From Nocardia arthritidis (GTDB taxonomy: Bacteria > Actinomycetota > Actinomycetes > Mycobacteriales > Mycobacteriaceae): a stretch of 64,000 bases of DNA. The stretch is taken from positions 8,308,001 to 8,372,000 of the forward strand of contig NZ_CP046172.1 of NCBI RefSeq assembly GCF_011801145.1, written 5' to 3'. Made by a program: the position numbers and the translations under genes. The notes below the pieces were generated by a model. That model ran no database searches, was not told where the DNA came from, and worked only from the letters and a program-made list of their open reading frames with translations. How positions within the stretch are numbered: the stretch's first letter is position 1; every line of letters begins with the position of its first letter. This document shows positions 5,885-37,680 of this stretch, in pieces.

Positions 5885-6955
5885 TTGGCGCCGTTCGGAT
5901 TTCGTGACACGGTAGATATCGCACTGGTGGTGCCGCTGAGTGGTCCGGCAGGCATGTTCGGGCCGTCCTGCGAGGCGTGCGCCGATCTGGCCATCGATGA
6001 CATCAATGCCGCGGGCGGCATACTCGATCGCCCGGTCCGGCTGCATCCGGTGGACGCGGGCGCACCGCTGCCGCTGCTGGCCGAGCGGATCGATCGAATG
6101 GTGAGCGCCGGAGCGATCGATGGCGTCGTCGGCTGGCATCTGTCCAACGCGCGCAAGGTGATAACGCCGCGCACCGCGGGCCGGGTGCCCTACGTGTACA
6201 CCACCTTCTACGAGGGCGGCGAGGATTCCGACGGCGTGTACATGGTGGGCGAGACACCCGATCAGCAGCTGTTCCCCGCGTTGCGCTGGCTGCGCGCCGA
6301 ACTCGGGATCCGGCGCTGGTGCGTGGTCGGCAACGATTATGTCTGGCCGCGCGAAACAGCCCGGGTGACAAAGGATTTCGTGCGGACCACGGCGGATCTC
6401 GAGGTGATCGGCGAGATCTTCCTTCCGCTCGGCGGGCGCGATTTCCGCGGCGCGCTCGACCTGATCGGCGGATCGTCGGCGCAGGGCGTGCTGCTGTTCA
6501 TGGTCGGCGCCGACTGCGCCGCCTTCAACCGCGCCTTCGCCAGGGCCGGATTCGACGACCGCCGGGTGCGCCTGAGCATGATGATCGGCGAGGACGTGCT
6601 GTACGCGGGCGGCGCCACGAGCACGCGCGGACTGTTCACCGCCTCCGGCTATTTCGAGAGCCTGGTGTCCAGCGCCGGGATGGATTTCGGGGCGCGGTAC
6701 CTGCGTGAATTCGGGCCCGCCGCACCGGCGCTGAACAATATCGGCGAATCCTGTTACGAGGGGCTGCTGCTGTTCGCCTCGCTCGCCGAGACCGCGCGCA
6801 GCCTCGACCTGCGCACCATCGAGCGCAGCGCGGCCGGGGTCAGCTACGGCGGCCCGCGCGGCGAAGTGCGGGTGCGCGGCGCGCACACCACCCAGCCGGT
6901 GTACCTGGCGGGCGCGGACGCCCTGGAGTTCGGTGTGCTGGCCGAACTCTCGTAA
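5885..6955 (+). CDS. AmiC-like cytoplasmic amide-binding sensor (type I periplasmic-binding fold)
   Basis: The 356-residue protein has the two-lobed type I periplasmic-binding fold of AmiC/UrtA: IALVVPLSGPAGMFG at the first strand, AIDDINAAGGI, a hinge region near VYTTFYEGGE, and GESCYEGLLLF near the end. It has no signal peptide or lipobox, so it should stay in the cytoplasm like Pseudomonas AmiC, which senses short amides and frees the antiterminator AmiR. No ANTAR/AmiR gene is present nearby. The start is TTG at 5885, because a TGA occurs in frame at 5876 and GGTGGTGA precedes the TTG. FmdB and the amidase follow, which supports a role in amide sensing. Confidence 0.75.
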   Translation: MAPFGFRDTVDIALVVPLSGPAGMFGPSCEACADLAIDDINAAGGILDRPVRLHPVDAGAPLPLLAERIDRMVSAGAIDGVVGWHLSNARKVITPRTAGRVPYVYTTFYEGGEDSDGVYMVGETPDQQLFPALRWLRAELGIRRWCVVGNDYVWPRETARVTKDFVRTTADLEVIGEIFLPLGGRDFRGALDLIGGSSAQGVLLFMVGADCAAFNRAFARAGFDDRRVRLSMMIGEDVLYAGGATSTRGLFTASGYFESLVSSAGMDFGARYLREFGPAAPALNNIGESCYEGLLLFASLAETARSLDLRTIERSAAGVSYGGPRGEVRVRGAHTTQPVYLAGADALEFGVLAELS

Positions 6956-7016
6956 TACGAAGTTCACCTTGCGGTTTCGCCACGGAGACGCGCGTAGCTT
7001 TGTATCGTCACCGTAC

Positions 7017-7025
7017 GAAATATAC
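7017..7025. promoter_or_regulatory. GAAATATAC motif upstream of fmdB
   Basis: This is the second copy of the 9-mer found before the AmiC-like gene. It sits in the 96-base spacer between the AmiC-like stop and fmdB, in an AT-rich patch unusual for this genome. It may belong to a promoter or operator that lets fmdB-fmdA be transcribed separately from the sensor. Confidence 0.3.
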
Positions 7026-7051
7026 CCGCTTGAAAATATTTGAGGTGCAAA

Positions 7052-7330
7052 GTGCCGACTTACCAATTCATCTGCCGCCGCGGCTGCGGCAGCTTCGAGC
7101 GCAGCTTCGCCATGGCCGCCGCACCGGCGGTCACCTCATGCCCGCAGTGCGCGGGCGCCAGCCGCCGCTGCTTCGGCGGCGCGCTCATCCAACCCGGCTC
7201 CGCCGCGAGCCGGCTGTTGGAGGCCACCAATCGCACCGCGACCGAACCCGCCGTCGTCCATTCCCTGCCGGCCGGCCGAAGCGCAACGGTCACCCGTAAC
7301 CCCTTGCACCGCAAGCTCCCTCGACCCTGA
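7052..7330 (+). CDS. fmdB: FmdB-family zinc-ribbon protein
   Basis: The 92-residue protein opens with the FmdB pattern PTYQFICRRGCGSFE and continues to SCPQCAG, giving two cysteine pairs for one zinc. FmdB proteins accompany formamidase/acetamidase genes and are thought to help regulate them or assist the enzyme; the mechanism is not settled. The start is the GTG at 7052, with GAGGTG five bases upstream. The C-terminal half is basic and low in complexity. The amidase gene begins 19 bases after the stop, so the two are very likely one transcript. Confidence 0.82.
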   Translation: MPTYQFICRRGCGSFERSFAMAAAPAVTSCPQCAGASRRCFGGALIQPGSAASRLLEATNRTATEPAVVHSLPAGRSATVTRNPLHRKLPRP

Positions 7331-7349
7331 TCCGGAAAGAGGTCACATC

Positions 7350-8603
7350 ATGCCGGAACTGCTCTACCCGCTCGACTCACGCAAGCGGTTCACCGATCAG
7401 CAACTGGTCGGCCACAACCGCTGGCATCCGGATATCCCGCCCGTCGCCACCGTGAAACCGGGCGCCGAATTCCGGGTGCATGTGCGCGAGTGGTTCGACG
7501 GCGCCATCCACAACGACGATTCCGCCGAGGACGTGCTCAACGCCCCGCTCAGCACGGTGCACTGCCTGTCGGGCCCGTTCGCCGTCGAGGGCGCGCGCCC
7601 CGGCGATCTGCTCGTCGTCGACATTCTCGATATCGGCCCCATCCCGCAAGAGGATTCGGGCCCGCTGGCCGGACAGGGCTGGGGCTATACCGGCATCTTC
7701 CCCACCGACAACGGCGGCGGTTTCCTCACCGAACATTTCCCGGACGCATACAAGGCGATCTGGGATTTCAGCGGCCACACCGCGACCTCGCGGCATATTC
7801 CCGGGGTCAGGTTCACCGGTATCACCCATCCGGGCCTGATGGGCACCGCGCCGTCGAAAGCGTTGCTGGCCAAGTGGAATACGCGCGAGGCGGCGCTGAT
7901 CGCCACCGATCCGCTGCGCGTGCCGCCGCTGGCGCTGCCGCCCGAACCGCGCGACGCCGTACTCGGCGCGCTCGCGGGCCCGGAGTACGACCGGGTCGCC
8001 GCCGAGGCGGCACGCACGGCGCCGCCGCGCGAGAACGGCGGCAATCAGGACATCAAGAACTTCACCCGTGGCAGCCGCGTGTTCTACCCGGTCTTCGTCG
8101 ACGGCGCGAACCTCTCGGTCGGCGATCTGCACTTCTCCCAGGGCGACGGCGAGATCACCTTCTGCGGCGCGATCGAGATGGGCGGATTCATCGATCTGCG
8201 GGTGGATCTGATCGAGAACGGGATGGAACTGTACGGCGTCGCCGAGAACGCGATCTTCATGCCCGGTAGCGAAGGCCCGAATTACACGGAGTACCTTGCC
8301 TTTTCGGGCACCTCGGTGACGCTCGACGGTGAACAGCGCTATCTGGATTCACAACTGTCGTTCGAGCGCGCCTGCCTGCACGCCATCGACTATCTGACCA
8401 AATTCGGCTACAGCCGGGAGCAGGCGTACCTGCTGCTCGGCGCCGCACCGATCGAGGGCCGGCTCTCCGGTGTCGTCGATATCCCGAATTCCTGTGCCAC
8501 CGTGTACATTCCGACGGCCATCTTCGACTTCCCGGTCACCCCGTCGGCATCCGGGCCGGTGCGGATCGATCCCGGCCCCGGGGCGCCGCGCGCATCCCGC
8601 TAG
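7350..8603 (+). CDS. fmdA: Formamidase/acetamidase (FmdA/AmdA family)
   Basis: The 417-residue enzyme belongs to the FmdA/AmdA family, which hydrolyses formamide or acetamide to ammonia and the acid and is unrelated to the nitrilase-type AmiE. Visible family features are NRWHPDIPP, GPFAVEGARPGDLLVVDI, PGVRFTGITHPGLMGTAPS, SVGDLHFSQGDGE and DIPNSCATVYIP near the C-terminus. The size fits the roughly 405-420 residues of the family. AAAGAGGTCA precedes the ATG. It follows fmdB and the AmiC-like sensor, so the three form an amide sensing and hydrolysis unit supplying nitrogen or carbon. The sequence alone does not tell formamide from acetamide preference. Confidence 0.92.
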   Translation: MPELLYPLDSRKRFTDQQLVGHNRWHPDIPPVATVKPGAEFRVHVREWFDGAIHNDDSAEDVLNAPLSTVHCLSGPFAVEGARPGDLLVVDILDIGPIPQEDSGPLAGQGWGYTGIFPTDNGGGFLTEHFPDAYKAIWDFSGHTATSRHIPGVRFTGITHPGLMGTAPSKALLAKWNTREAALIATDPLRVPPLALPPEPRDAVLGALAGPEYDRVAAEAARTAPPRENGGNQDIKNFTRGSRVFYPVFVDGANLSVGDLHFSQGDGEITFCGAIEMGGFIDLRVDLIENGMELYGVAENAIFMPGSEGPNYTEYLAFSGTSVTLDGEQRYLDSQLSFERACLHAIDYLTKFGYSREQAYLLLGAAPIEGRLSGVVDIPNSCATVYIPTAIFDFPVTPSASGPVRIDPGPGAPRASR

Positions 8604-8622
8604 ACACAGGGCCTGAATATGC

Positions 8623-8667
8623 GAAAGCGCCGATCCCCCTGCAGGGTTGGACGGGATCGGCGCTTTC
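8623..8667. terminator. Bidirectional hairpin terminator between fmdA and the exported-peptide gene
   Basis: A perfect 15-base stem GAAAGCGCCGATCCC (8623-8637) pairs with GGGATCGGCGCTTTC (8653-8667) around a 15-base loop. It lies between the fmdA stop and the stop of the convergent exported-protein gene, so it can end both transcripts. There is no long T-run. Confidence 0.85.
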
Positions 8668-8686
8668 GGTTCGGTCGACTGCCGGA

Positions 8687-8923
8687 TTACTTCGGCAGCG
8701 GCGTCACGCCACCGCTACCCGAGCTGAGCAGCTTGGCCAGGCCGGTGGCGAAGTTGGACGAGCCGGTCGGCGCCGGAGCCGGGTCCGCGACCTGGTTGTT
8801 GCTGACCGCGGCGGGCGCGGCCGGGGCGAGCTCGAGGCCCTGGGCCGAGGCCAGGCCGGCGCCCGCGCTGACGATGGCGGCGGCCGCGGCGGCGACCAGG
8901 CCGAACGTACGGATCTTCTGCAT
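8687..8923 (-). CDS. Small exported Ala/Pro-rich protein
   Basis: The 78-residue product has a clear Sec signal: MQKIRTFG, a hydrophobic Ala/Val core and a likely cleavage site after GLASAQG. The mature part, about 50 residues, is rich in Ala, Pro, Ser and Gly with NNQVADPAP and no recognisable domain. GGAGTAGCC lies before the ATG. It is a single-gene unit on the minus strand ended by the hairpin at 8623-8667. I do not recognise a function; it could be a small cell-envelope protein, as is common in this order. Confidence 0.7.
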   Translation of the reverse strand: MQKIRTFGLVAAAAAAIVSAGAGLASAQGLELAPAAPAAVSNNQVADPAPAPTGSSNFATGLAKLLSSGSGGVTPLPK

Positions 8924-9246
8924 GTGGCTACTCCCCTATTTCAGTGGTTCGGCGTCGAACGTGCACGCCGACGCACAAGGAGTATCACGAATTCGCAACG
9001 CTCGAATCGGGTGCGGATCCGGGCCGACTCACGCTGATAGCTAAGGATTTGCCACCAGCCTGAGCGGCGACCTGGACAATTGAACAGTAGTGCCCTATCG
9101 GATTCGACCCCGAAACCGCTGTAGTTCAACCGAAGTTTGCATCCCCGTCACACCGTGTTGATCACAGCTAACTCTCAGCCACCGTGAGATTTGGGTCACA
9201 CCAGGCACTTCTTAACAGGTAGTAAGGCCACCAGCAACCGAAATAC
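8924..9246. other. Intergenic region of about 320 bases, no gene seen
   Basis: This stretch lies between the start of the exported-peptide gene and the end of the HMG-CoA lyase gene, both on the minus strand. It must hold the promoter of the exported protein. A 62-codon minus-strand frame at 8941-9129 is Arg/Ser-rich without family features and is not called. I see no terminator hairpin, tRNA or clear repeat. Confidence 0.5.
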
Positions 9247-27492: not shown

Positions 27493-27867
27493 GTGCAGAC
27501 GAACGATGTTGCCGCACTGAACAAGGCGGTCGACGATGGCCAGCTGTGGATCGACGGCGTGCTGGTCGCCGATGGTGCGCACGAGCGCTGCGCCACCCGC
27601 TACGAACAGCTCGCGGATCGGGTCGAGGCCCAGATCCGCGTGCTGAGCGGGGCGACATCCCTACCCGGTTTCGGCGGTTTCGCCTCGGGTGACGCGCTGC
27701 GCGGCGGCTTCGAATCGAAGGCTGACAGCGCGATAACGCATCTGCGCGATTACGCCGATGCCGCGCGGGCGCTGGCCCAGACGTTCCGCGCGGCGGCGGC
27801 CGCGTACGACCGGGCCGACGGTCAGCTGGCGAGCGCGGTCAAGGCGACGGGAGCCGACAATGCGTAA
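27493..27867 (+). CDS. ESX-associated small helical protein with YxxxD motif (EspC/WXG100-like)
   Basis: The 124-residue, almost wholly helical protein starts at a GTG preceded by GGGGGA. It lacks a Sec signal but has YDRAD near residues 107-111, which fits the YxxxD type VII secretion signal after a helical hairpin. A short Gly-rich turn (SLPGFGGFASGDALRGGF) separates the helices. It overlaps the next gene by eight bases. With the PPE-like and EspG genes downstream it forms a typical ESX substrate pair plus chaperone. The family call rests on context, size and the YxxxD motif. Confidence 0.7.
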   Translation: MQTNDVAALNKAVDDGQLWIDGVLVADGAHERCATRYEQLADRVEAQIRVLSGATSLPGFGGFASGDALRGGFESKADSAITHLRDYADAARALAQTFRAAAAAYDRADGQLASAVKATGADNA

Positions 27868-29166
27868 ATTGCCGCGCACCAAGGAGCGGGGAACGAACCA
27901 GTTCGTGGATCCGGAGTACGCGCCGACCGTCGAGGAGTTCGACAACCTGTCGCACGCGGAGATCCACAAGAAGGTGCAGCTGATGGATCCGTCGGTGCTC
28001 ACCGCGGGTCAGCAGGCCTGGCACGGATCCGCCACCGGGCTGGCCGAGGCGGTGACGGACGCGCACACCGAGATCCGGTCGGCGATCGCCGACGGCTGGC
28101 GCGGGGCCGCCGCGGAGAAGGCGGTTGCCGCCGTGCGTTCGTTCGAGGAGAGCGGCCAGCGACTTGCCGATGTGATGGCGACGGTCGCGCAGCGGCTCGG
28201 CCAGGCGGGCGATGCCGCGGAGGCGCTGCGTGCCGCGGTGCCGCAGCCGCACTCGGCCCGCCCGGATCTGTCGGCGGCCCTGCTGAATCCGTCCGCGGCG
28301 ACGGCCAACGCGGGCATCCAGAAGTCCGCCGAGAGCGCCCGCCAGGATGTGGTGCGGGCGATGGACACCATCTACGCGTCGGCGTTCATCCCGACCGGCA
28401 CCGGGGTGCCCGCTTTCGCGGACGAGACGCTGAGCCCGGCGGGCCAGCCGTCGACCGGCGAGAAGCGCACGATCGCGGAAAATCCCGCGACGCAAACGGT
28501 TTCGCTGATCTCCGGCACACAGCCCGGCGAAACGCCGGTGGTCGCCGCACCCGAACCGCAGGCCGATCGGCCCGCGACGGTTACCGCGACACAACCCACC
28601 GCGACCACCGAAACCACCCCGCGTCAGCCGCTTCGGCGATCGATCCGGCGCGCCCGGCAGCCGCCGACCCGGCGACCGTTCCGGCCACGGCCCGAACCGC
28701 GCCCTCCACCTCGACGGTTCCCACCACCGTCGCCATGACCGAAACCGTTGCCCCACAACCGGTTTCATCCACCGGACCGAGCGCCGCGACGCCCACCGAA
28801 GCGCAACCGGCATTCACCGCGACCCGCGCCACGAGCACCTCTGCCGACGAGAAGCGCAAACGCGATGAGCGGCAACGGGATTCGGATTCCAACTCGACCA
28901 CCGATACGGTCACCGGTGTCGGCGCGGGCGCCGTCGGCGGCCTGATGGGCGGCGCGTTCGCCGCCTCAGAGGCACCGCCACGTTCCGGCCCGAGCGTCGC
29001 CGCCACCGCGGCGCGGGCCGCCCGCGCGGAGGACGAGGACGACGAACTGCACTGGATCGACGACGATCTCGACTATCTCGAACCCGCCGACGAGAGCACC
29101 GAACTGATCGGCGCGCTGGATCCCACCACGCCGCCGGTGCTAGGTGAGTGGACCGAACTGGAGTGA
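27860..29166 (+). pseudogene. PPE-like ESX substrate, frame broken once near 28620
   Basis: From the ATG at 27860 the frame encodes a PPE/WXG-like helical domain (about 20-190: FVDPEYAPTVEEFDNL, MDPSVLTAGQQAWHGSA, DGWRGAAAEKA) and a Thr/Pro/Ala linker. Near 28617-28620, a CCCC run, it turns into an Arg/Pro-rich string and stops at 28738. The next frame reads from 28621 without a stop as further Thr/Ala linker, then GVGAGAVGGLMGGAF, an acidic DDELHWIDDDLDYLEP segment and TTPPVLGEWTELE, ending at 29166. Adding one C restores a single 435-residue protein. Either the gene carries a one-base deletion or the read has an error. The EspG start overlaps the final stop. Confidence 0.78.
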
Positions 29167-29918
29167 ACTGGACCTTCACCCCGGATCAGTTCGCGCTGGC
29201 CTGGGCCCGCACCGATGGCGACCGCATCCCGTATCCGCTCGCCGTCCGGCGGTCCGCACGCGACACCGCCGAGCGCGAGGCACAACTGCCCGAACTCAAC
29301 GCGTGGTGCGACGAAGTGGTCGACGCGGATGTCGAAGCCGCGCTACGGGTTCTCGCCAAACCGACCGTATGCGTCGAGGTATTCGGCGAGCGCGGCGCCG
29401 AATCGGAGGTGCGCCCCGTCCGCGTGCTCGGTGCGGCGGCGGGCAATATCGCGGTGGTCGCCGCCCAGCGCCCCGGCACCGAGCCCGATCGCGGCGGCGA
29501 GGTGCGGCTGTATGTCGGCGGCGCGAAAACCCTTCCGGCCCGGGTTGTTTCGACGCTGCCGGAGAATGTGCCCGGCGGCACCGAACGGTTGACCGCGCCG
29601 CTGGCGAAGGTCAACGAGGACAGCCGCGACCTGGTGACGGTTCCGGTGTCCGGGCCGACGGTTTCGGCGCGCATCCGCAGGCTGCTCAAACAGCCGCGCG
29701 ACGGGATCGGGCAGCTGGTGGTCTCGGTGCGCCGCGATGACGAACTGCGCCCGTTCGGCGTGCTGTGCTGGATCGATGTGGCGGGCGACGGCCGCTACGC
29801 GGTGCGCACCGGCGCCGACGTCGACGTCACCCCGGTCGGCGCGGAGGCGTTCACCGCCGTGCTGCGGCCGATGGTGACGGCGGCGGCGCGCAGCGTCCAA
29901 TACGCCGAGCAGTGGTAA
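29163..29918 (+). CDS. EspG-family ESX secretion chaperone
   Basis: The 251-residue protein starts at the GTG at 29163, overlapping the previous stop as GTGA; a GTG at 29148 is possible but poorly spaced. It has the EspG pattern: WTFTPDQFALAWARTDGDRIPYPLAV, alternating strands with VCVEVFGERG, AAAGNIAVVAAQRPG, and the C-terminal RRLLKQPRDGIGQLVVSVRRD. EspG proteins bind the tip of PE/PPE-type dimers in the cytosol and keep them soluble until type VII secretion. Its position after a YxxxD protein and a PPE-like protein supports that role. No ESX core gene (eccC, eccD) is in the window. Confidence 0.82.
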   Translation: MNWTFTPDQFALAWARTDGDRIPYPLAVRRSARDTAEREAQLPELNAWCDEVVDADVEAALRVLAKPTVCVEVFGERGAESEVRPVRVLGAAAGNIAVVAAQRPGTEPDRGGEVRLYVGGAKTLPARVVSTLPENVPGGTERLTAPLAKVNEDSRDLVTVPVSGPTVSARIRRLLKQPRDGIGQLVVSVRRDDELRPFGVLCWIDVAGDGRYAVRTGADVDVTPVGAEAFTAVLRPMVTAAARSVQYAEQW

Positions 29919-31246: not shown

Positions 31247-33022
31247 ATGAGTACCAATGAGGTCGACAGCGTTCCTGGCGACGAGAACCAGGAGACGTCC
31301 GGCCCCTCCTTCGCCGATCTCGGGATCGATGACCGCATCCTCGCGGCCATCGCCGATGTCGGCTACGAATCGCCGTCGCCGATTCAGGCCGCCACCATTC
31401 CGCCGCTGCTGGAGGGCCACGATGTGGTCGGGCTCGCGCAGACCGGCACCGGCAAAACCGCGGCATTCGCCATCCCGATCCTGATGGGAATCCAGGCGTC
31501 GGGTAAATCCCCCCGCGCCCTCGTGCTCGCGCCGACCCGCGAACTCGCGATCCAGGTCGCCGAGGCGTTCGGCCGCTATGCCGCACATCTGCCCGGCATC
31601 CATGTGCTGCCGATCTACGGCGGCCAGAGCTACGGTGTGCAGCTTTCGGGTCTGCGCCGCGGCGCGCAGGTGGTGGTCGGCACGCCCGGTCGCGTCATCG
31701 ACCATCTGGAGAAGGGCACGCTCGACCTCTCGCAGCTGCAGTACCTGGTGCTCGACGAGGCCGACGAGATGCTGAAGATGGGGTTCCAGGAGGATGTCGA
31801 GCGCATCCTCGCCGACACCCCGGCGGATAAGCAGGTCGCCCTGTTCTCGGCGACGATGCCGTCGGCCATCCGCAAGATCTCCAAGCAGTACCTGCGCGAG
31901 CCGGTGGAGATCACGGTCAAGGCCAAGACCGCCACCAACACCAACATCACCCAGCGCTGGGTGCAGGTGTCGCATCAGCGCAAACTCGACGCGCTCACCC
32001 GGATACTCGAGGTCGAGTCGTTCGAGGCGATGATCATCTTCGTGCGCACCAAGCAGGCCACCGAGGAGTTGGCCGAAAAGCTTCGGGCGCGCGGTTTCTC
32101 GGCGGCCGCCATCAACGGCGATATCGCGCAGGCGCAGCGGGAGCGGACCATCGGCCAGCTGAAGGCGGGCGCGCTGGACATCCTGGTGGCCACCGATGTC
32201 GCCGCCCGCGGTCTCGATGTGGACCGCATCTCGCATGTGGTGAACTACGACATCCCGCACGACACCGAGTCATACGTGCATCGGATCGGGCGTACGGGCC
32301 GGGCCGGGCGCAGCGGCGAGGCGCTGCTGTTCGTCGCGCCGCGGGAGCGGCACCTGCTCAAGTCGATCGAGCGGGCCACCCGGCATCCGCTCACCGAAAT
32401 GCAGCTGCCGAGCGTCGAGGACGTCAACGCGCAGCGGGTGACCAAATTCGGCGACACCATCACCGAGAATCTGGCATCGGCGAATGTCGCGCTGTTCCGC
32501 AAGCTGATCGAGGACTACGAGCGCGAACACAACATTCCGCTGGTGGATATCGCGGCGGCGCTCGCGGTCGGATCGTACGACGGCGACAACTTCTTCATGG
32601 AGCCGGAACCGGAACCGGAACGCCGGGAACGGGTTCCGCGGGAGCGTCCGGCCCGCCGCTTCGAGGACGAGGAGCGGTCGCATCACCGCGGCACCGGCGC
32701 GGAGCTGGCGACCTACCGGATCAGCGTCGGCAAGCGGCACCGCGTGGTGCCCGGCGCGATCGTCGGCGCCATCGCCAACGAGGGCGGGCTGCGCCGCAGC
32801 GACTTCGGGCATATCAGCATCCGGCCCGACCACAGTCTGGTCGAACTGCCCGCGCATCTGCCGGCGGAAACGCTGGAAGCATTGCGCCGCACCAGGATCA
32901 GCGGTGTACTGATTCAGCTGCAACTCGATCAGGGACCGCCCCAGCACCGCACGCTCAGCCGCGGCCCGCGCCGCGACCGCGACAGCGTCAAGCGATTCGA
33001 ACGGCGCAAGCCACGCTCTTGA
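31247..33022 (+). CDS. deaD: DEAD-box RNA helicase (DeaD/CsdA type)
   Basis: The 591-residue protein has all helicase motifs: the Q motif region ending SPIQ, I AQTGTGKT, Ia PTRELA, Ib TPGR, II DEAD, III SAT, IV IIFVRTK, V TDVAARGLD and VI HRIGRTGRAGR. A C-terminal DbpA-type RNA-binding domain (about 480-560: YRISVGKRHRVVPGAIVGAIANEGGLR) and a basic Arg-rich tail follow. It unwinds RNA in ribosome assembly and cold or stress response. In mycobacteria deaD (Rv1253) sits near a large ATPase gene (Rv1251c) and kgd (Rv1248c), as recalled; the same genes occur here. Confidence 0.95.
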   Translation: MSTNEVDSVPGDENQETSGPSFADLGIDDRILAAIADVGYESPSPIQAATIPPLLEGHDVVGLAQTGTGKTAAFAIPILMGIQASGKSPRALVLAPTRELAIQVAEAFGRYAAHLPGIHVLPIYGGQSYGVQLSGLRRGAQVVVGTPGRVIDHLEKGTLDLSQLQYLVLDEADEMLKMGFQEDVERILADTPADKQVALFSATMPSAIRKISKQYLREPVEITVKAKTATNTNITQRWVQVSHQRKLDALTRILEVESFEAMIIFVRTKQATEELAEKLRARGFSAAAINGDIAQAQRERTIGQLKAGALDILVATDVAARGLDVDRISHVVNYDIPHDTESYVHRIGRTGRAGRSGEALLFVAPRERHLLKSIERATRHPLTEMQLPSVEDVNAQRVTKFGDTITENLASANVALFRKLIEDYEREHNIPLVDIAAALAVGSYDGDNFFMEPEPEPERRERVPRERPARRFEDEERSHHRGTGAELATYRISVGKRHRVVPGAIVGAIANEGGLRRSDFGHISIRPDHSLVELPAHLPAETLEALRRTRISGVLIQLQLDQGPPQHRTLSRGPRRDRDSVKRFERRKPRS

Positions 33023-33106
33023 GCCGGGCAGGGTACGGCCCCTGCGGCGACGCTAGCTAAGGTGTTGCCGTCCGGTGTACCCGCGGGACGCACAGGAGGG
33101 GCGCGT

Positions 33107-36100
33107 TTGTTCGTGTTCGGTGATCGTGTCGTCTGCACCGCCGTTGATCTCGTGCGCGCGGCGCGCTGTGAATTCGCGATGCTGCGCGCCCTCGATCGCC
33201 GGATCGGCACGCTATCGGAGGTGGCCGAGCCGGTCACCGACACCGAACCCGTGGGCGCATTCGATGATTCGCACGCGCGCAGGCTCGCCGATCTGCGGGA
33301 CCGGTTCGGCGGCGCGCTGGTCGATGTGCGGCTGCACGCGGAGTTGCCCGACGATCCGGCGGCCAGGATCGCCGCGCTGCGAACCGCGCACACCGAAACC
33401 GTCACGGCGTTGCGGGCGGGGGTGCATGTGGTGCACCGCGCCACCTTCTTCGACGGAAGGTTCGCCAGCACCTGCGATTTCCTGGTCCGGGCCGGGCATC
33501 GGGTGCGCTACACCGTGCAGGGCACCCACCGGGGCGGGCCCGATACCGTCGGCGCCGCACTTGAACTCGCCGCCTGCGCCGACGCGCTGGACGGCAGCGG
33601 CGCGCTCACCGCGCCGGTGGTCCGGTTGTTCACCGGCGAGCAGTGCACGGATTACCCACTGAGCGAACTGCTTCCGATCTACGGTGCGCGCAGGCGCAGG
33701 CTGGAGCGGATCCTCGACGAGAAACTCGGTGAGCTGCTGCCCGCGCAGTGGGGCGATCAACGCTATCTCGCATGCGGACGATGCCCGGACTGCACCGCGG
33801 CCATCGCGGGGGCCCGCGACCTGTTCCTGGTGGCCGGAATGGCGAACACCACGCGGGCGCGGCTGCGCGAGGCCGGTGTGCACACCATCGACCGGCTGGC
33901 CGTCACCCAGGCGAACGTGCGGGGTGTGTCCCCGCGCGCCCTCGCCACGCTGCGCCGCCAGGCCGAAATCCAGCTGCGCCGCGAGGTTTCCGGACAGCCG
34001 ACGCATACGCTGGTCGATGCGATCGCGCTGGGCGCGCTGCCGCCGCCGTCACCCGGGGATCTCGCGCTGACCATCGCGGACGGCGTTGTCGAGCTCGGCA
34101 ATTCGGATGCGGTGCTGCTCTCGTTCCGGGACGCCGAACTCGGGCGCGGCCTCACCGAGCTGCTGGAACTGGTCGCCGAGGAACGGCTGCGGCATCCGGA
34201 TCTGCATATCTACCACTACACCTCGCGGGTGCGCGCGGATCTGCTGCGGCATACCGCCGCGTGCGGGGTCGGCGAGGAGAGCGCGGGTGAACTGCTGCGG
34301 GCCGGTGTGCTGGTCGACCTGTATCCGATCGTGCGCAACGCGATGCTGGTCGGCGAACGCTCGTACGAACTGCCCGGACTACGCGGCCTCCTACCGGATT
34401 CGGTTGCGGCGGAACGGGATTGCGTCACCGTGCTGCGGCTGCGGGATTGGCTGCTGGACCGCGCCGCCGAACAGCATCCGGTGCTGCCCGCGCCGACGCT
34501 GGCGCCGATCGGCTCCTGGTGTCTGGTGCCGGGACCCGAGGAGCCCGGCCCGCACGACCTGGCCGATCCGCTGGCCGGGCCGTCATCCATCGCGGCGGCG
34601 CTCACCGAATTCGTCAACACCCTGGCCGATTCGCCCCCGCACCACCCCGCGGCCATGATGGCCGCGGCGCTGGGCTATCACCGCCGCGAGCGCCAGCCGC
34701 TGTGGTGGGCGCATACCGACCGGCTCAGTCATCCGGTGGACGAATGGGCCGACGCGCCCGGTGTGCTCGTCGCCGAATGGGGCACCGTGGATACGAAATG
34801 GCATCGCAGCCCATCGGCGGGCAGGAGCGGAGCGACCCGGGAATCGACACAGCGGCCGACCATGCGCCGATATCTCACCCTGACCGGGCGGATCGGCAGC
34901 GGCGGCGCGAACTCGGTATTAGCGCCCGGCACAACGGTTTACACGTTCTACGACCATCCGGTGGCCGCGGGTATGGTCGCCGCGATCGGCAAGCGGGCCA
35001 CCGCGAGCGCGACGGTGCTCGGCTGCTCGGTGGACGCCGACTTCGATGACACGGTCCGCCTGGAGGAACTGCTGCCCGAGGGCTGTGAACCATACGACGA
35101 ACTGCCGATCGCCATCGCGCCGGGACTGCCCGCCTGGGACGAAAGCACCGAGGACGCGGTCGAATACGCGGCGCAACAGCTGCTCGTCGCGCTGCCGCGG
35201 ATCCCGTACGGCGCCCTCTTCGACATCCTGTGCCTGCGCAGACCCCGGATGCGCCGGGCGCTTTCGCTACCGGAGGTGCACGGCGACCACGCGGCGGCCA
35301 TCACCGCCGCCGTCCGCGATCTGGACGATTCCTATATCGCCGTACAGGGTCCGTCGGGCACCGGTAAGACCTCCACCGTCGCCCGGGTGCTGGAACGCCT
35401 GGTCACCATGCACCGGTGGCGGATCGGCGTTGTCGCGCAGGCGCATTCGACGGTGGAGCAGCTGCTCGACGCGGTGGTGCGGGTCGGCGTGCTACCGGAA
35501 CTGGTCGCCAAGAAGGACGTTCAGGCGGTGAAACCGGAGTGGGCCGTCATCGATGCGGCGCGCTATCCGCGATTCCTGGACAACTCCGTCAACGGATGCG
35601 TGATCGGCGGCCTGCCAACGGATTTCGCGAACGACGCGATCGTGCCCGCGGGCAGGCTGGATCTGCTGGTAATCGCCGACGCGGGCGGTTTCCCGCTGGC
35701 CGATACCGCCGCGGTCGCGGTGAGCACCCGGAATCTGTTGCTGCTCGGCGATCTCGCGCCGGCCACCGCGCGGGCCACTCATCCGGAGCCCGTCGGCATG
35801 TCGGTGCTGAACTGGCTGGTCCAGGGACGCGCGACGCTGCCTGCCGAGCGCGGCTATTTCCTGGACCGCACCTGGCGCATGCATCCGGCGGTATGCGGGC
35901 CGATCTCCCGGCTCTGCTACGACAATCGGCTGCGCTCCAACGAAACCGTCACGCTGGCACGCAATCTCGAGGGTGTCGAGCCGGGAATCGAAACCGTCCT
36001 CGTCGAACATCACGGCAATGCCACCGAATCCGATGCCGAGGCCCGTGAGGTGGTGCGCCGGGTGCGCGCCATGCTCGGTGCCGCGTGGACCATCGGCGCG

Positions 36101-36451
36101 GTCACCAGGCGGCTGCATCCGCACGATATCTTCGTGGTCGCCCCATACGGCGCTCAGGTCGGCCGGATTCGAACGCTGTTGGCGCGGGCCAAGATCGAGG
36201 ATGTGCTCGTCGGCACCGCGGACCGGTTCCGCGGCCGGGAGGCGGCCGTCGTACTGCTCTCGATGACGACATCCAGTCCGGCCGACGCCCCATACGGTAT
36301 GCCGTTCCTGTTGTCGCGCACGCTGATTCAGGCCGCGCTGTGCCGGGCCATGTGGAAGGCGATCATCATCCGCTCACCGCTGCTCACCGAATACCTGCCG
36401 CCGGACACCGGCGAATTGGCCGATCTAGCGGGTTTCCTCACCTTGAGCTAG
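33107..36451 (+). CDS. TM0106/UPF1-like nuclease-helicase protein with altered active sites
   Basis: The 1114-residue protein starts at the TTG at 33107, six bases after AGGAGGG, giving MFVFGDRVVC as expected. The N-terminal part is a RecB/Cas4-like nuclease domain with a CGRCPDC cluster (Cys 223, 226, 229) and helix-hairpin-helix-like repeats. The C-terminal part (from about 690) is an SF1 helicase with Walker A GPSGTGKT (748-755), DRTWRMHP and DRFRGREAAVV. However the nuclease (D/E)xK position reads QGTH, Walker B DEAG reads ADAG (857-860), GDPxQL reads GDLAPA, and motif VI SRAR reads CRAM (1079). It resembles mycobacterial Rv1251c in size and place. Probably a structural or regulatory pseudo-enzyme, or one with changed chemistry. 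Confidence 0.78.
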   Translation: MFVFGDRVVCTAVDLVRAARCEFAMLRALDRRIGTLSEVAEPVTDTEPVGAFDDSHARRLADLRDRFGGALVDVRLHAELPDDPAARIAALRTAHTETVTALRAGVHVVHRATFFDGRFASTCDFLVRAGHRVRYTVQGTHRGGPDTVGAALELAACADALDGSGALTAPVVRLFTGEQCTDYPLSELLPIYGARRRRLERILDEKLGELLPAQWGDQRYLACGRCPDCTAAIAGARDLFLVAGMANTTRARLREAGVHTIDRLAVTQANVRGVSPRALATLRRQAEIQLRREVSGQPTHTLVDAIALGALPPPSPGDLALTIADGVVELGNSDAVLLSFRDAELGRGLTELLELVAEERLRHPDLHIYHYTSRVRADLLRHTAACGVGEESAGELLRAGVLVDLYPIVRNAMLVGERSYELPGLRGLLPDSVAAERDCVTVLRLRDWLLDRAAEQHPVLPAPTLAPIGSWCLVPGPEEPGPHDLADPLAGPSSIAAALTEFVNTLADSPPHHPAAMMAAALGYHRRERQPLWWAHTDRLSHPVDEWADAPGVLVAEWGTVDTKWHRSPSAGRSGATRESTQRPTMRRYLTLTGRIGSGGANSVLAPGTTVYTFYDHPVAAGMVAAIGKRATASATVLGCSVDADFDDTVRLEELLPEGCEPYDELPIAIAPGLPAWDESTEDAVEYAAQQLLVALPRIPYGALFDILCLRRPRMRRALSLPEVHGDHAAAITAAVRDLDDSYIAVQGPSGTGKTSTVARVLERLVTMHRWRIGVVAQAHSTVEQLLDAVVRVGVLPELVAKKDVQAVKPEWAVIDAARYPRFLDNSVNGCVIGGLPTDFANDAIVPAGRLDLLVIADAGGFPLADTAAVAVSTRNLLLLGDLAPATARATHPEPVGMSVLNWLVQGRATLPAERGYFLDRTWRMHPAVCGPISRLCYDNRLRSNETVTLARNLEGVEPGIETVLVEHHGNATESDAEAREVVRRVRAMLGAAWTIGAVTRRLHPHDIFVVAPYGAQVGRIRTLLARAKIEDVLVGTADRFRGREAAVVLLSMTTSSPADAPYGMPFLLSRTLIQAALCRAMWKAIIIRSPLLTEYLPPDTGELADLAGFLTLS

Positions 36452-36501: not shown

Positions 36502-37680
36502 CTAGCCGAAGCATTTGCCTTCGCCGCGGTAGGTCGGCACCGTGGTGCGCGTACCGTCGGCGTCCACCAGATGCACCCGGTCGAAGCGTTCGCACAGTTC
36601 ACCGGCCTTGGCGTGGCGGAACCACACCCGGTCCCCGATCCGCGTCTCGGCGGCGCCGGACAGCGGTGTCTGCACCTCGCCCGCGCCCTCGGTGCCGATC
36701 AGCTTCAATCCGGTGGGCCACACCGGTTTCGGCACCCGCGACGGTCCGGCCGGGCCGGAGGCGATATAGCCGCCCGCGAATACGGTCGCGATCGACGGCG
36801 TCGGTTTGCGCAGCACCGGGGTCGCGAAAAACAGTGCGGGCCTTGGGGTGAAGGCCCGATAGTGATCGAAAAGCGTTGGCACGTAAAGTCCGGAGCCCGC
36901 GGTCACCTCGGTGACGTCCGGATCGGCGATGCTCACCTCGATGGATCCGGTGCCGCCGCTGTTGACGATCTCCAGCTTGCCGACCTCGGCGCGCACCGCG
37001 TCGAGCACAGTGCGGCGGCGCTTGCCGATTTCGGCGGCGGAGGCCCGCTTCACCAGCCGCACCGCGATATTGCTGTCGGGCAGTCCGGCGATCTGCGCCT
37101 CATAGGTCATCACGCCGACCACGTCGAAACCGCGTCGCCGAGCCGCCGAGGCCAACGCCGCCGCCTGTTCCGGAGTGCGGATCGGCGAGCGGCGGACGCC
37201 GAGGTGCAGCGGACCGATCCGCAGCGAGGCGTCCACGTCGAGGCAGATCCGCGGCCGCACCAGCTCGCTGCCGACCGCGGCCCGGATGAATTCCAGCTGC
37301 GCGATGTCGTCGACCATGAGGGTGATCGACTGCCGCAGCGTGTCGTCGGCGGCCAGTTCGGCGAGCCCGGACCGGTCGACCGTCGGATACCCGAGCAGGA
37401 CGTCGCGCGCGCCGAGTCCGACCAGCCAGATCGCCTCGGCCAGCGAATAGGACATGATGCCCGCGAAACCGCCCGCCGCCGTCAGGCCGGTGCCGAGTAC
37501 CTCCTCCAGCACCGCGCGGCAGCGCACCGATTTGCTCGCGACCCGCACCGGAACCCCGTTGGCGCGGCGGATCAGGTCCGCGGCATTGGCGCGCAACGCG
37601 CCGAGGTCCAGCGCGGCCAGCGGCGGATCCAACTCGGCGGTGGCCGCGTGCAGACCCGCAATGGGCGACGTGACTGTCAC
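36502..37680 (-). CDS. PLP-dependent amino-acid deaminase/aldolase (alanine-racemase-like barrel)
   Basis: The 392-residue protein has a fold type III PLP barrel: PPLAALDLGALRANAADLI, VRVASKSVRC with Lys50 as the Schiff-base lysine, AGGFAGIMSYSLAEA, LDVDASLRIGPLHLGVRRSP and VNSGGTGSIEV for the phosphate. The C-terminal beta domain contains GDRVWFRHAKAGELCERF. This is the D-threonine aldolase / D-serine dehydratase-like branch, where the His/Cys near the end bind a metal. The start is the GTG at 37680 with a weak ribosome site. The substrate, probably a D-3-hydroxy amino acid, is inferred from the family only. Confidence 0.82.
   Translation of the reverse strand: MTVTSPIAGLHAATAELDPPLAALDLGALRANAADLIRRANGVPVRVASKSVRCRAVLEEVLGTGLTAAGGFAGIMSYSLAEAIWLVGLGARDVLLGYPTVDRSGLAELAADDTLRQSITLMVDDIAQLEFIRAAVGSELVRPRICLDVDASLRIGPLHLGVRRSPIRTPEQAAALASAARRRGFDVVGVMTYEAQIAGLPDSNIAVRLVKRASAAEIGKRRRTVLDAVRAEVGKLEIVNSGGTGSIEVSIADPDVTEVTAGSGLYVPTLFDHYRAFTPRPALFFATPVLRKPTPSIATVFAGGYIASGPAGPSRVPKPVWPTGLKLIGTEGAGEVQTPLSGAAETRIGDRVWFRHAKAGELCERFDRVHLVDADGTRTTVPTYRGEGKCFG

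Follow-up and report, generated by a model that had tools for sequence, protein, structure and literature searches.

A TM0106-type helicase–nuclease relative that has lost three active sites and is very probably retained as a pseudoenzyme in Nocardia

In this study, we analysed a gene of Nocardia arthritidis that lies within a 64,000-nucleotide stretch of contig NZ_CP046172.1 (positions 8,308,001 to 8,372,000), here called the window, whose own numbering is used for the features listed below. A preliminary description made from the letters of the window alone had read the gene product as a RecB-like nuclease joined to a superfamily 1 (SF1) helicase, with both catalytic centres altered. Judging from our alignments, all three active sites of the ancestral protein were destroyed on the Nocardia stem, and the persistence of purifying selection after the loss of the catalytic residues indicates that the product is very probably a pseudoenzyme kept under selection.

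The gene and its three former active sites

Outside Nocardia, intact orthologues consist of three modules, whose motifs have well-known roles in nuclease, exonuclease and helicase families in general. These are a RecB-like nuclease (motifs H, D, DTK and QxxxY and a set of four cysteines, Cys4), an RNase_H_2 (DEDD) exonuclease (DFE, VDLYP and YNxxD) and an SF1 helicase ((D/E)EAG, GDPQQLPQ, FQG and SRA). The sequence from Mycobacterium crocinum (P0121) served as the intact reference. Against this background the window holds the following features.

33107..36451, forward strand: gene of the probable pseudoenzyme, an open reading frame of 1114 codons and orthologue of the TM0106-type RecB/RNase_H_2/DNA2-like helicase protein
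33107..33997, forward strand: RecB-like nuclease domain, active site lost including QxxxY (boundary approximate, from the alignment)
33518..33529, forward strand: QGTH; the intact DTK is GTH here, at 33521-33529
34019..34540, forward strand: former RNase_H_2/DEDD exonuclease domain (boundary approximate)
34070..34087, forward strand: TIADGV replacing DFEGDP, first DEDD Asp lost
34316..34318, forward strand: Asp of VDLYP, kept
35348..35371, forward strand: Walker A, GPSGTGKT, kept in the window protein
35675..35686, forward strand: former Walker B, ADAG replacing (D/E)EAG (alignment to intact orthologues)
35747..35764, forward strand: former motif III, GDLAPA replacing GDPQQL (alignment to intact orthologues)
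35867..35887, forward strand: motif IV, RTWRMHP, Arg kept
36341..36352, forward strand: motif VI, CRAM (SRA to CRA), Arg kept

The frame is open as previously described, and all motifs quoted at that time lie where they had been placed. The proposed kinship with TM0106-type nucleases and UPF1/DNA2-like helicases also holds, since the protein is an orthologue of this family, but the third module, the RNase_H_2/DEDD exonuclease, had been overlooked. In Pfam, the C-terminal helicase is the sole domain of the window protein above cut-off (AAA_12, 63.2 bits against a cut-off of 27), and PF13482 (RNase_H_2), which matches intact P0121 with 60 bits, gives no match. TIGR03491 (TM0106 RecB-like nuclease) reaches 38.8 bits and thus stays below its cut-off of 97.45; its best-matching stretch, residues 223-274, contains cysteines. 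The top sequence matches in the PDB are DNA2, UPF1 and SMUBP-2, and the protein is 36-49% identical to the 30 intact members aligned with it. Relatives are listed in databases as 'TM0106 family RecB-like putative nuclease' or 'bifunctional RecB family nuclease/DEAD/DEAH box helicase'; because several Nocardia members are among those called bifunctional nuclease/helicase, annotators should be warned.

The residue losses were scored in an alignment of 399 unique sequences out of 414 (217 from Nocardia and 182 others; identical sequences and those shorter than 850 aa were dropped), and in a census in which one gene was taken from each of 150 Nocardia genomes and the key residues were counted. Partial loci and the frame-broken copy L122 are among the 217 Nocardia rows, and a single search, made with a mycobacterial query, supplied as many as 120 of the 182 non-Nocardia rows. 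In the alignment, all 217 unique Nocardia sequences have lost the Asp and Lys of the nuclease, the first Asp of the DEDD site and the two acids of Walker B. All twelve scored residues are kept in the 171 non-Nocardia sequences, mostly mycobacterial, that reach the N-terminus; the remaining 11 non-Nocardia rows are partial, and the Walker B pair is kept in all 182.

The census gives the detail for each site. The nuclease Asp is kept in 0/150 genomes (7 gaps), as is the Lys (63 gaps; the loop is of variable length), and neither the Gln nor the Tyr of QxxxY is kept in any genome (5 gaps each); the first nuclease motif histidine is retained in five. The first DEDD Asp is retained in at most two genomes, one of the two with a truncated copy; the Glu of DFE is mostly lost in the alignment. 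At the helicase site, the Walker B Asp position is occupied by A, V or P in every genome (138, 9 and 3, respectively) and the Glu position by Asp, also in every genome, and the Gln of motif III is kept in none (2 gaps). Walker A carries Lys in 132 genomes and Arg in 18, Thr/Ser is present in 131, and both residues are intact in 113. The Arg of motif IV and that of motif VI are each kept throughout (150/150). The changes first noticed in the nuclease (DTK to GTH), in Walker B ((D/E)EAG to ADAG) and in motif III (GDPQQL to GDLAPA) are therefore real, and the loss of Walker B and of the nuclease DxK is shared by every Nocardia copy examined. Both catalytic centres are altered as claimed, and the DEDD site is lost in addition (DFEGDP to TIADGV). 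However, motif VI, likewise called altered, differs in its first residue but still has its Arg, and Walker A, described as kept, is so in the window but not in the genus as a whole; ATP binding may hence be possible for most members, though not for all.

The uniform replacement of Glu by Asp raises the alternative of a modified rather than an inactive ATPase, in which Asp at the position of the catalytic Glu would permit slow or different chemistry. The fixation of this exchange in all 150 genomes would be consistent with such an activity, as would the universal arginines of motifs IV and VI and the Walker A Lys in 132 genomes. However, the Walker B acid before it, a Mg ligand in this fold, has been replaced by A, V or P without exception, the motif III Gln is gone from every genome and Walker A is degraded in 37, and we consider a remaining ATPase quite unlikely.

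Many members of the N. asteroides group and its relatives (P0079, P0081-P0106 and others to P0120) carry low-complexity inserts at the former DxK loop, often tens to more than 100 residues long.

Age of the loss, distribution and selection

In a FastTree phylogeny of 163 sequences, the 97 Nocardia sequences are monophyletic (support 0.999, stem 0.45), with an intact sequence (L144, genus g68) as sister, and the tree supports the orthology with the mycobacterial gene that had previously been suggested. An IQ-TREE analysis of 22 taxa gave a stem of 0.459 for the gene as opposed to 0.067 for deaD, the gene upstream in the window, from the same genomes; relative to other genera, the Nocardia-to-Mycobacterium distance is 1.79x for the gene and 1.25x for deaD. 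All covered outgroup sequences are intact, which places the loss on the Nocardia stem. Furthermore, both basal Nocardia clades are dead and no intact Nocardia copy is present among those examined, and the inactivation therefore took place before the sampled Nocardia diverged from their last common ancestor. It had been suggested that the dead state might be ancient and common to mycobacteria. This was not borne out, since the aligned mycobacterial sequences (Rv1251c itself not among them) are intact, and the dead state is thus as old as the sampled genus but not older. Intact orthologues in close relatives, which had been named as a sign of recent decay, do occur, but outside Nocardia only; with no intact copy among the Nocardia examined, they do not indicate recent decay.

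The gene is present in 150/150 Nocardia genomes. Its frame is at least 1000 aa long in 145 of these and reaches the contig end in the other five. In contrast, a sample of 141 genomes from the rest of the family, counted by hand, contains 53 with a full-length match (three of them with one internal stop), two more with the gene in two pieces, one with a distant copy (G191) and one with a broken copy (G086). The dead version is thus more widespread in Nocardia (150/150) than the intact one is in this sample (53-57/141); in the sister genus g68, the gene was seen in only one (G251) of the four genomes shown. The broken copy in G086, a Mycobacterium (C1:917681-919227), is interrupted by stops and provides an example of a true pseudogene for contrast. 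Plasmids of Rhodococcus, Arthrobacter and several proteobacteria also bear homologues of the intact protein (e.g. NZ_CP130484.1, 13697-17164); 152 plasmid records match, 52 of them covering at least 80% of the query.

A second, intact copy replacing the dead gene was considered and rejected, as the intact sister, used as query, matched just one sequence in each of the 150 Nocardia genomes (E<=1e-30), none of them at more than 59% identity. The genome under study does encode another TM0106-type protein (L031, G000:C1:100522-102057), which scores 283 bits with TIGR03491, lacks the helicase domain and by eye reads NHK where DxK is expected; a BLAST comparison of this protein with the window protein and P0121 gave no match at the limit used. 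The patchy and, in other taxa, plasmid-borne occurrence of the intact form resembles that of an accessory or defence gene, and a dead version could act as an antagonist or decoy that occupies DNA ends, or that binds and blocks active homologues or phage factors. However, no second homologue was found at the above threshold in the 150 genomes and the PADLOC matches of the window protein are confined to its helicase part, so that we regard such a role as very unlikely.

Conservation within the dead protein is uneven, and three features mark its cysteine segment.

33164..33181, forward strand: RCEFAM, Cys 1 of the Cys4 set (alignment)
33731..33793, forward strand: residues 209-229, ending in CGRCPDC; 7 of 48 newly invariant positions
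33773..33793, forward strand: CGRCPDC, Cys 2-4 (motif reading)

In agreement with the earlier reading of CGRCPDC, all four cysteines are kept in 144 of the 145 Nocardia copies that cover them, and the segment is probably a 4Fe-4S staple. The opposite pattern is seen in four sequences from genera g73/g76 (L159, L161, L162 and L163), which lack all four Cys and keep the nuclease, exonuclease and helicase residues. Of the 264 positions that are invariant in the outgroup, Nocardia conserves 123 to at least 90%, whereas 141 fall below this level. Ten positions that we ourselves chose as chemistry-bearing are lost more often than the other invariant ones (9/10 versus 132/254; Fisher p 0.022), which gives a weak indication of preferential loss of catalytic residues, many structural positions being eroded as well. 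Conversely, 48 positions are invariant in Nocardia yet variable outside; the densest 21-column segments contain seven of these each (several tied, from 196-216 to 209-229), and the gain of invariance beside cysteines 2-4 has a permutation p of 0.0065.

Selection was estimated as the ratio of nonsynonymous to synonymous substitution rates (dN/dS; Nei-Gojobori) on disjoint pairs, of which 51 of 52 from Nocardia were usable and 15 were intact; some pairs may be from the same species. The median for the whole protein is 0.223 in Nocardia and 0.235 in intact orthologues. By domain, the values (Nocardia first) are 0.304 and 0.327 for the RecB-like part, 0.325 and 0.242 for the RNase-H-like part, 0.156 and 0.222 for the linker, 0.145 and 0.136 for RecA1, and 0.110 and 0.182 for RecA2. 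A run with overlapping pairs gave 0.157 for the Nocardia gene (46/60 pairs within the dS limits) and 0.082 for deaD (22 pairs), and, for mycobacteria and other genera, 0.231 for the intact gene (57 pairs) and 0.200 for deaD (31 pairs). Constraint on the gene is therefore weaker than on deaD and comparable to that on its intact orthologues. With medians of 0.157 and 0.223 and presence in 150/150 genomes, recent decay is ruled out, and the proposal of a maintained pseudoenzyme is upheld.

Several observations weigh against the overall reading set out below, a selected pseudoenzyme that acts as a clamp or subunit. Walker A is degraded in 37/150 genomes, and nucleotide binding is therefore not essential everywhere; the RNase-H-like part is somewhat relaxed; and in the N. 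brevicatena NBRC 12119 draft the copy (L122, about 5900-9124) is frame-broken, although this could be real or a sequencing error. BLAST alignments of the window protein with the copies of G423, G389 and G333 begin only at residue 47, 133 and 491, respectively, and the N-terminal parts of these copies are therefore far diverged, while the G028 lineage has lost three of the four cysteines. In addition, the permutation p near the cysteines is 0.09 when invariance as such is scored, and the gain of invariance there may in part reflect lower diversity inside one genus. Slow decay, that is, a pseudogene on its way out that is still open by chance, would fit the erosion of about half of the outgroup-invariant positions (141/264), the relaxed RNase-H-like part and the broken N. 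brevicatena copy. However, the gene is present in every genome, the dN/dS medians are far below 1 in every domain and RecA2 is under tighter constraint than in intact orthologues, which makes slow decay extremely improbable.

Gene neighbourhood and possible roles

The surroundings of the gene bear on both its orthology and its function.

31247..33022, forward strand: deaD, direct upstream codirectional neighbour in the window's Nocardia clade; derived order
33058..33063, forward strand: putative -10-like element TAAGGT (TAnnnT), read by eye
33094..33099, forward strand: Shine-Dalgarno sequence AGGAGG, preceding the TTG start codon at 33107
36502..37680, reverse strand: alanine-racemase-like gene, convergent neighbour

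A convergent racemase-like neighbour also accompanies the intact gene in 6/14 outgroup loci (L178, L179, L180, L181, L183 and L184), and this shared neighbour establishes positional orthology. Four of these six loci also include deaD, on the opposite strand and at a distance of about 5-7 kb; Mycobacterium locus L177 has deaD about 1 kb away, divergent and without the racemase, and the other seven loci have neither gene as a neighbour. The notion that a place next to deaD matches mycobacteria is thus correct in so far as deaD is near in L177, but it is divergent there. In the other basal Nocardia clade, deaD is divergent and kilobases away, and in asteroides-group loci deaD and the gene stay paired with the racemase on the other side. 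The adjacency is best explained, from these gene orders, as a later rearrangement within Nocardia by inversion of the deaD block. PPE-like and EspG-family genes near deaD (window 27758-29918) change their order along with deaD between the two Nocardia clades.

Most of the other Nocardia loci compared at this point also have AGGAGG, including the two from the other basal clade (L083 and L118), and elements of the TACAGT/TAAGGT kind recur by eye 5' of Nocardia orthologues and of several intact orthologues outside Nocardia. This suggests that the TAnnnT element in front of the gene may belong to a promoter of its own; scanning the intergenic region before the gene for the sigma-70 consensus gave no match. 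Taken together, the neighbourhood bears on the earlier idea that the protein is a partner or scaffold of DeaD. In favour of this, one large Nocardia clade has deaD immediately upstream, and the two genes remain together in the asteroides group despite the changed position of the racemase. However, the other basal clade is equally dead with its deaD divergent and distant, and the gene has a Shine-Dalgarno sequence and a putative -10-like element of its own. As a functional clue the adjacency is therefore weak, and we think a DeaD partnership highly unlikely.

Genus-wide retention under selection despite the lost sites probably means that the protein has a job without catalysis. An ancestor with intact nuclease, exonuclease and helicase sites lost all three on the Nocardia stem, and we propose that the dead protein would now serve as a non-catalytic clamp or scaffold subunit that binds nucleic acid, its working surface being formed by the Cys4 segment and the RecA2 half. 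The arginines of motifs IV and VI, together with Walker A in most lineages, might serve as an optional switch by which the protein responds to nucleotide that it binds but does not turn over. The underlying logic would be that of RecC, in which a dead relative guides DNA for an active partner. The clamp or subunit mechanism is tentative; as a whole, a fixed and selected pseudoenzyme that acts as a catalysis-free clamp or subunit with RecC-like logic is our best explanation, which we hold with moderate confidence. A more doubtful extension is that the loss of catalysis turned an accessory enzyme, patchy and plasmid-borne elsewhere, into an obligatory protein of the genus core, with the Cys4 segment, probably 4Fe-4S, and the adjoining surface as its new working part, a clamp or sensor for nucleic acid devoid of nuclease and motor activity.

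A narrower alternative is that the protein has become an indispensable, inactive part of one particular complex, paired with an active helicase or nuclease whose gene lies elsewhere, in the way that RecC pairs with RecB and RecD (PMC1185551). Retention in all Nocardia genomes and the strongest constraint in RecA2 would agree with this. However, no conserved active partner is linked to the gene, the deaD adjacency is clade-specific and Nocardia has a separate RecC already, found in 13/13 genomes searched, and we regard an obligate complex of this kind as unlikely. Three active-site losses on one stem branch, after which the dead protein is more widespread than the intact one in the family sample, amount to an unusually clean natural experiment. 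It offers a tractable bacterial case for studying what helicase–nuclease proteins do besides cutting and unwinding, and whether Cys4 may have a role apart from the nuclease, the g73/g76 sequences (n=4, two genera) showing the opposite pattern.

Comparison with known systems

Literature searches for the TM0106 nuclease or the bifunctional RecB family nuclease found nothing, and one for Nocardia helicase pseudoenzymes found nothing judged related; the passages found on Rv1251c list it as a member of a STRING set and of an expression cluster. The intact TM0106-type proteins share domain order, Cys4 and gene position with the window protein, but in Nocardia all three active sites are gone. In the iron-sulphur nucleases AddB, Cas4 and DNA2, Cys4 frames a RecB fold whose DxK active site is kept; the framing is like that of the window protein, in which, however, only the cysteines are left and no DxK. 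RNase_H_2 corresponds to the YprB/MrfB family, and intact orthologues match this Pfam model, whereas the Nocardia proteins are without the first D and mostly without the E of DFE. MrfB/YprB itself is described as a DEDDh exonuclease (PMC11194089). Utp25, a helicase-like protein described as a pseudohelicase (PMC9539457), is comparable to the window protein in this respect, but it is a eukaryotic ribosome assembly factor.

The window protein is not the RecC of Nocardia, since TIGR01450 is not among its matches and a separate recC is located at G000:C1:6095094-6098294. RecC of RecBCD is, like the window protein, a dead relative of an active helicase–nuclease that is kept for a non-catalytic role, and its inactivated nuclease-like domain forms a hoop for single-stranded DNA (PMC1185551). 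However, RecC belongs to another lineage, and in the window protein the DEDD domain is lost too.

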